NCBI GenBank assembly: GCA_029239875.1
Contig: JARBUD010000007.1
Span: 186,001-250,000 of the forward strand
Length of the DNA stretch: 64,000 bases
Source of the DNA: Xanthobacteraceae bacterium
Lineage (GTDB): Bacteria; Pseudomonadota; Alphaproteobacteria; Rhizobiales; Xanthobacteraceae
Reading direction: 5' to 3'
Notes under the pieces: model-generated
Told to the model about the DNA's origin: nothing
What the model saw: the letters and a program-made list of their open reading frames with translations, nothing else
Databases searched by the model: none
In this document: piece by piece, positions 59,148 through 61,644 of the stretch
How positions within the stretch are numbered: position 1 is the stretch's first letter
Layout of the letters: every line of letters begins with the position of its first letter
Translations under genes and position numbers: made by a program

Positions 59148-61040
59148 TCAGCTTGCCGGCAGGCGGACGATGAAGCGTGCGCCGGCCGGCTTCTCTGCGG
59201 GGGCGGCCCCGTCGACAGATTTGCCCTTCGCCTTCGACCGGCTCTTCTTCGGCTCCGACGGGCGGTTCTCCGCCCAGACGCGCCCGCCATGCGCCTCGAC
59301 GATCTGGCGCGAGATCGACAGGCCGAGGCCGGAGTTCTGGCCGAAGCCCTGCTCCTCCGGCCGGTCGGTATAGAAGCGCTCGAAGATGCGGGTCAGCGCA
59401 TGCGGAGGAATGCCCGGCCCGTCGTCGTCGACGATGATCTCCACCGCGTCGCGGTGACGCCGGCAGGTCACCCGCACCTCGCCGCCCTTCGGCGTGAAGG
59501 AGCGGGCATTGTCGATCAGGTTGTTGATCACCTGCCCGAGCCGGGAATCATGGCCCGGCACCACGAAGTCGCCGCTCGCCCCCGGCGCGTGCTCGAAGGC
59601 GACCGTCACATGCACGCCGTCGCCGCGCACCACGTCGTTGTGGACGCCGGTGACGGTGTTGAGCAGTCGGATCAGGTCGACCGGCTCGGATTCCTGGCGC
59701 TGCAGTTCGGCATCGAGACGGGAGGCGTCGGAGATGTCGGTGATGAGGCGGTCCAGCCGCTTCACGTCGTGCTGGATCACCTCCAGCAACCGGCCGCGGG
59801 AGGAATCGGTCTTGGCCAGCGGCAGCGTCTCCACGGCAGAACGCAAGGAAGTGAGCGGGTTCTTCAATTCGTGCGAGACGTCGGCGGCGAAGCTCTCGAT
59901 CGCCTCGATGCGCGAATAGAGCGCGTCGGTCATGTCGCGGAGCGCACCGGAGAGATGGCCGATCTCGTCCGAGCGGCTGGTGAAGTCGGGGATCTCGACG
60001 CGCGAGCGGGTACGCCGGCGCACCCTTTCGGCGGCGTCGGCGAGCTTGCGCACCGGTCCGGCGATGGTACTGGCGAGCAGCAGCGAAAGCACCACCATCA
60101 CCACCATGGCGACGATGAAGACGCGCACGATGACGAGCCGCTCGGCCGCCACCGCCTCGTCGATCTCGCCGCCCTGGGTGGAGAGCAGCAGCGCGCCGAG
60201 GATGGCGCGGAAGCGCTGCACCGGGACCGCCACCGAGACGATGACCTGCCCGCGGTCGTTCACCTGCACGGCGCTCGACTTCTGGCCCAGCAGCGCCGCG
60301 GTGACTTCCGGGTAGCCCTTGCCGTTGTTGGGACCGAGCTCCTTGTAGAGCGGCAGGTCGCCGCGCTCGAACCACATCTTCATGGCGTTCCAGCCGCGCT
60401 CCATCCAGTTCGGTTTGGGCGCGTTAGGGGCGGGCATGTCGAAGCGGAGGATCTCGCCGCGCGAATAGAGCGAGCGCGAATCCAGCAGCAGCGCGCCGTC
60501 GCGGTCATAGATGCGGGCGCGGGTGCCGGTCGGCTCGACGAGGCGCTTAAGCACGGGCGCGACGCGCTCGGGATTGATCGGGAATTCGAGCGGGGCGAAG
60601 CCCTCCTCGCCCGGCCCGTAGCTCTCGCCGGCCTGCAGCTCAAGCAGGCGCTCTGGGTCGATGGTGATGGCATTGGTCTCGACCTGCGCCGAGGCGGCGA
60701 TGGCGCCGGCGATGATCTCGCCCTGCACCAGCAGGCTCTGTACCCGCGCATCGATCAGGCCGGCGCGGAACTCGGACAGATAGAGGATGCCCGACACCAG
60801 CGCGCCCATGCCGACTAGGTTCAGCAGGACGATGCGACGGGTAAGGCTGGAGAAGCTCTTGAAGGCGACGAAGTTGCGCACGCGGCGCAGCGCGCCGAGC
60901 ACCCCCGCGCGACGCTCCGAGCCGGAGGCGTCCGCCGTCTCCTCGGGACCCGTGTCCGGCCGGTCGTCCTCAGCCGCGGCGCGGGTCGATTCGGGGTCGA
61001 GCAAAGAGCCGCTACTCCTTGAAGCGGTAACCGACGCCAT
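59148..61040 (-). CDS. chvG: Sensor histidine kinase ChvG/ExoS
   Basis: 630 residues. A cytoplasmic N-terminus leads to TM1 ([20 protein letters not shown]), a periplasmic sensor of about 200 residues that in relatives is held by ExoR, and TM2 ([20 protein letters not shown]). HAMP follows, then the H-box [15 protein letters not shown] and HATPase boxes [24 protein letters not shown] and [11 protein letters not shown]. It senses acid or envelope stress. ATG 61040 lies within chvI; a TTG at 61004, 10 bases after AAGGAG, is a reasonable alternative. Its regulator ChvI is damaged in this sequence. Confidence 0.95.
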
Positions 61041-61644
61041 AGAGCGTCTCGATCATCTCGAAATTGTCGTCGACGACCTTATAGGCCGCGTCCATCAGCG
61101 CGTTGCGGCTCTTCACCACGCCGGGGCGGGTGGCGAGCGCCTGCAGGATGAGGAACTCGGTCACGGTCAGCGTGACGTTCTCGCCCTTCCAGGTGCAGGT
61201 GTGGCGCTCCGGGTCCATGCGCAGAAGGCCGCGCTCCAACACCTTGGCGCTGTCGGTCTCGCGCGGCAGCGAGCCATCCTTGGGCGCGACGCGGCGCAGC
61301 ACCGCCTTCACCCGCTCGACCAGCAGGCGCTGGGAGAACGGCTTCTTGATGAAATCGTCGGCGCCCATCTTCAGGCCGAACAGCTCGTCGATCTCGTCGT
61401 CCTTGGAGGTGAGGAAGATCACCGGCATGTCGCTCTTCTGGCGCAGGCGGCGCAGCAGCTCCATGCCGTCCATGCGCGGCATCTTGATGTCGAAGATGCA
61501 GAGGTCCGGTGGGTTGGTCTTGAAGCCGTCCAGCGCCGTCGCGCCGTCCGTGTAGGTCTGGATCCGGTAACCTTCGGATTCCAGGGCGATGGACACGGAG
61601 GTGAGGATGTTGCGATCGTCGTCGACGAGAGCGATGGTCGGCAT
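61012..61644 (-). CDS. chvI: Response regulator ChvI with a DNA-binding-domain deletion
   Basis: 210 residues; the family is usually 230-240. The receiver domain is intact: ALVDDDRNI, phospho-Asp in [23 protein letters not shown] and the KKPF lysine. The output domain starts normally ([30 protein letters not shown]) but then jumps at residue 188/189 straight to [22 protein letters not shown]. About 22 residues that in relatives carry [16 protein letters not shown], the recognition helix, are missing with the frame kept (junction at 61080/61081). ATG 61644 is the start. Either a natural in-frame deletion or a sequencing or assembly error; the protein as given should not bind DNA normally. Confidence 0.93.

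Follow-up and report, generated by a model that had tools for sequence, protein, structure and literature searches.

The response regulator gene chvI in the window, by which we mean the whole 64,000-nucleotide stretch of a Xanthobacteraceae genome analysed here, lacks 66 nucleotides that, by alignment, would encode the recognition helix of the DNA-binding domain together with the loop preceding it. We favour the explanation that these bases were lost in assembly and not from the living bacterium, with a probability of roughly 0.55, over a genuine and recent loss-of-function deletion. A new kind of regulator is less likely than a fault of the assembly or a mutation confined to one strain.

Results

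An in-frame gap of 66 nucleotides in chvI

The chvI gene maps to the minus strand at 61012..61644 and comprises 210 codons plus a stop, compared to the 232 codons found in 29 genus relatives. Its translation gives 210 residues without an internal stop, in agreement with the clean frame from start to stop described in the original prediction. Moreover, the protein passes directly from DAAY (residue 188) to KVVDD (residue 189), and both the translation and the comparison with the relatives place this jump, as had been proposed, between 61080 and 61081. Reading of the sequences showed that ChvI is 232 amino acids long in all 29 other species of the genus, with 22 additional residues between Tyr188 and Lys189, in line with the earlier estimate of about 22. 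Specifically, 66 nucleotides, neither more nor fewer, are gone from the window gene, in frame, and the edges of the gap (61080..61081, minus strand) line up with the relatives. Compared to G009, a relative with a complete genome, the junction cannot be slid by even one base (microhomology 0).

The receiver domain (residues 4-113, 61306..61635, minus strand) is complete, with a Pfam Response_reg match spanning positions 1-111 of 111 at 108.1 bits, and it is complete also in the relative L025. As for the DNA-binding domain, the matched remainder (residues 154-189, 61078..61185, minus strand) covers only positions 1-36 of the 77 of Pfam Trans_reg_C, with 30.5 bits, whereas the L025 protein matches positions 1-77 of 77 with 78.6 bits. 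The C-terminal remnant that follows the junction (residues 189-210 of the window protein, 61015..61080, minus strand) would correspond to the wing hairpin of the intact relatives, judging from published passages on RstA (PMC4117788).

The statement that everything around the gap is perfectly conserved turned out to be nearly right, the exception being one residue private to the window protein, Cys49 (codon TGC, 61498..61500, minus strand), where all 29 genus relatives carry Ala. This cysteine lies three residues before the aspartate that presumably accepts the phosphate. At this codon, two base changes are needed from GCC, the codon used by 26 of the 29 genus relatives.

The missing residues align with the recognition helix of PhoB

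The window protein has in common with ChvI of the ChvG–ChvI and ExoS–ChvI systems (OmpR/PhoB family) the receiver, the linker, the first half of the winged-helix domain, the C-terminal end and the position beside chvG. Over residues 1-189 it is 96-98% identical to the ChvI orthologues of the genus, unlike which it is without the 22 residues of loop and recognition helix. The recognition-helix motif is carried by 29 of 29 genus relatives and is missing from the window ChvI. According to passages of PMC4550343, the ChvI orthologues identified in that study have the same domain architecture as ChvI of S. meliloti, a Trans_reg_C domain having been one of the conditions for their identification.

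Intact ChvI aligns to the DNA-binding domain of PhoB (PDB 1gxp) without gaps through the segment VYVEDRTVDVHIRRLRKAL, which is the one facing the missing residues and is absent altogether from the window protein. We take 1gxp to be a DNA complex and the aligned PhoB segment to be the recognition helix. This assignment fits the passages of PMC4117788 on RstA, in which helix alpha3 (Asp198-Leu212) sits in the major groove and a transactivation loop extends over Gly191-Arg199. The RstA DNA-binding domain belongs to the same fold family; by analogy, its helix alpha3 and transactivation loop would correspond to the missing ChvI residues 189-210 (in the numbering of the long form), and both elements would be absent from the window ChvI.

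The truncated Trans_reg_C match and the alignment of the lost residues with the PhoB segment together bear out the proposal that the recognition helix is missing from the DNA-binding domain. A ChvI without these residues should not read DNA, and its output domain probably does not fold.

The short form is seen in a single genome

The short ChvI was absent from all 29 other species of the genus, in each of which the match ends at query residue 189. At the family level, a sample of 139 genomes was searched, counting the genome of the window itself and six members of its genus, with a match threshold of E 1e-60 or better. ChvI was matched in 137 of the 139 genomes, two remaining without a match, and the window's own match alone spans residues 1-210. 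A further 135 matches end at query residue 189, where long forms lose alignment, and were judged to be long forms from this end point; in the remaining genome, G523, the match ends at residue 140, before the junction. In the order sample, ChvI was matched in 377 of 397 genomes and, among the matches listed, all but the window's own end at residue 189. Close relatives with the same short form, the finding that the original prediction had named as contrary to it, were looked for in the genus and family samples and none was encountered. A degenerate DNA pattern built on the short junction and run against genome_contigs, a search in which entries for this genome, or for a very close one, may be missing, gave a single match, in Lacticigenium; this was rejected as part of an unrelated protein.

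The window's genome is a draft of 5.07 Mb in 71 contigs. No second chvI was found in it, the next best ChvI match being 40% identical, nor was the lost piece found elsewhere in it, the best match, within a different response regulator, having 58% identity across 19 residues. In addition, no natural allele lacking the recognition helix in frame is described in the titles or abstract beginnings listed for the ChvI/ChvG, Xanthobacter and natural-isolate literature.

The chvG kinase gene and constraint on the pair

The sensor histidine kinase gene chvG lies at 59148..61040 on the minus strand; with its first ATG taken as the start, its frame and the 3' end of chvI overlap. The Pfam domains Sensor_TM1, Stimulus_sens_1, HAMP, HisKA and HATPase_c were all recognised in its product, which is 96.5% identical to that of G009 over 634 amino acids, aligned without gaps; the top NCBIfam match is ChvG, at 494 bits and under the cut-off of 740 for that family. 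On the strength of the expected domains and of the gap-free alignment, the kinase does look intact, as had been suggested. Elsewhere in the genome, an ExoR-like protein is encoded at L069:1003-1902 (minus strand), with ExoR as its top NCBIfam match (170.5 bits, E 3.9e-50, below the 450-bit cut-off). By eye, the ExoR-like gene adjoins genes resembling xthA and ilvD.

Changes along each branch were counted at codons where G009 and G021 agree, 573 codons being compared for chvG. In chvI, the window branch carries six synonymous changes and a single replacement (Ala49Cys), the G009 branch 11 and none. In chvG, the numbers are 51 synonymous changes and four replacements on the window branch and 41 and four on the G009 branch. 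Both genes look normally constrained, so that the loss must be of very recent date if it is real at all.

Sequence context of the junction

No repeat or overlap that could mislead an assembler was found at the chvI junction. Deletion between direct repeats was considered and rejected, since the longest pair in the scanned stretch, of 9 bp, would delete 57 nucleotides and not 66. In L025, a 10-bp inverted repeat has one arm within the lost stretch and the other just past its right edge. The lost stretch, taken with 30-nt flanks, is not hairpin-rich: by RNA energies its folding is equalled or bettered by 86.5% of 400 background windows, and its G+C content is lower than that of 98.5% of them. 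A loss driven by folding through the inverted repeat was set aside, the region not being prone to folding.

Clean losses elsewhere in the genome

Parts of four contigs from the draft genome that contains the window (G000) were aligned to the complete relative G009, giving 478,198 and 90,869 aligned positions with an overlap under 10 kb, that is about 0.56 Mb. Losses were counted when they were clean, of 30 bp or more and with well-matched flanks. G000 has six such losses and G009 seven.

Three of the six cut genes, namely the 66-bp loss in chvI and losses of 134 and 37 bp, with microhomologies of 0, 0 and 1, respectively. The 134-bp loss, at C16:62923 on the contig of the window and outside it, shifts the frame of a GTP-cyclohydrolase-II-like gene and breaks it (G000:C16:62776-63073). 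Each of the 29 genus relatives matches the affected piece over its full length, and only in the window's genome is the match split in two. Another member of the GTP-cyclohydrolase-II family is retained there, and the broken gene therefore need not be essential. The 37-bp loss, at G000:C35:151450, shifts the frame of a histidine kinase gene, by eye just past the ATPase domain; this piece is whole in G009, and in G020 as far as the G020 contig reaches, while in the other 27 genus genomes the only matches are relatives about half identical to it.

The other three losses, of 109, 113 and 30 bp, were set aside by eye. Those of 109 and 113 bp represent a single palindromic element, of which G009 has a copy at each of the two sites; the 30-bp loss, in frame in a coding-like stretch, is an imperfect 15-bp tandem. 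The 113-bp element, absent from the window's genome and present in G009, likewise gives a microhomology of 0, and for this reason such a value alone is no mark of a fault. Among the seven losses of G009, four were seen by eye to contain a dispersed repeat and a fifth to be a tandem repeat, the remaining two, of 44 and 219 bp, lying outside the analysis. None of the seven has a microhomology of 0 and, with the 44- and 219-bp losses outside the analysis, none was linked to a gene that is conserved.

In a strict scan covering 336,570 of the aligned columns, no small coding frameshift was detected in either genome, the only hits being the 134-bp loss and a 15-bp loss that keeps the frame; the scan misses chvI because the flanks of that gap hold few substitutions.

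Two families of dispersed repeats were noticed by eye in intergenic regions of the two genomes. One, of the CATCCTGAGG / CCTTCGAGG type, occupies different positions in G000 and G009, for example G000:C16:61073 and 135657. A second one, of the GATGAAACATCC type, explains the 109- and 113-bp differences. The use of 16S to tell an isolate from a metagenome assembly was uninformative: it was found in eight of 30 genus genomes and was missed in single-contig ones too.

Discussion

Both causes put forward in the original prediction, a true in-frame deletion of 66 bp and an assembly error, survive the analysis, and it is the latter that we prefer. If the assembly is at fault, it would drop tens of bases inside ordinary genes, at clean edges and in a few places, chvI being one such place where the loss happens to keep the frame; the real strain would make a normal ChvI of 232 residues, and its signalling would be ordinary. 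This explanation is consistent with a short form that is private to one genome, all 29 other genus members having the long one. It is favoured also by the two further clean losses of 134 and 37 bp, both of which break genes by shifting the frame and thereby tip the balance slightly towards an assembly fault. One of the three gene-cutting losses keeps the frame, the proportion expected of a process indifferent to the reading frame, and the presence of three clean coding losses in one draft, with none shown in the complete relative G009, points to a process that acts regardless of gene function. We infer that the three losses share one cause and that this cause is technical. Against this, the junction has neither a repeat nor an overlap to account for an assembler skipping the stretch, which is neither hairpin-rich nor GC-rich for its region, and the lack of small coding frameshifts in the columns scanned makes the base-level quality look good. 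The chvI loss is, besides, in frame; deletions by end joining in real DNA would look alike, and the 134- and 37-bp losses could also be real mutations. Finally, three events versus none make a small sample, two of the losses of G009 lying outside the analysis.

A genuine, very recent deletion in this strain, resulting in a loss-of-function allele, is a serious competitor to which we give somewhat less than even odds. On that account, ChvG would still sense and phosphorylate ChvI and the receiver would work, but the output domain would fail and the ChvI regulon would stay unswitched; the short ChvI may then act as a phosphate sink. The kept frame, the complete receiver and ChvG domains, the ExoR-like protein elsewhere in the genome and the lack of a misleading repeat at the site all argue for it. 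So does the variable need for ChvI among relatives. The regulator had been described as essential or near-essential in many rhizobia, which holds for S. meliloti on rich medium and not generally: according to the passages of PMC10659215 on this point, two models other than S. meliloti do not depend critically on ExoS and ChvI, and the need for them varies in other Rhizobiales. Likewise, the relevant passages of PMC9731502 report a Caulobacter chvI deletion, poorly viable under osmotic stress. With a variable need and an existing Caulobacter deletion, a strain could live without ChvI. On the other hand, the deletion is seen in one genome only, the 134- and 37-bp losses in the same assembly suggest that the fault is a general one, and neither chvG nor the rest of chvI shows any trace of decay. 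It appears highly improbable, by comparison, that the short form has been selected, a ChvI without DNA binding being retained to drain phosphate from ChvG or to pair with another regulator. The in-frame loss confined to loop and recognition helix, beside a conserved receiver and kinase, would suit such a role, but beyond these tidy edges nothing speaks in its favour. No relative examined shares the short ChvI, so there is no evidence of persistence, and no intact partner copy turned up in the genome, where the next best ChvI match is 40% identical and the best match to the lost piece 58% identical over 19 residues. We accordingly consider it very doubtful that ChvI takes the ChvG phosphate while blind to DNA, and that a conserved envelope-stress pathway would end in a regulator kept for protein contacts alone.

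In conclusion, if the gap is an artefact, which is slightly more likely, the assembly drops short stretches inside genes, and other apparent gene losses in it need checking before they are interpreted. If it is real, a natural strain lives with the output of ChvI cut off, which bears on the need for this pathway in the family.
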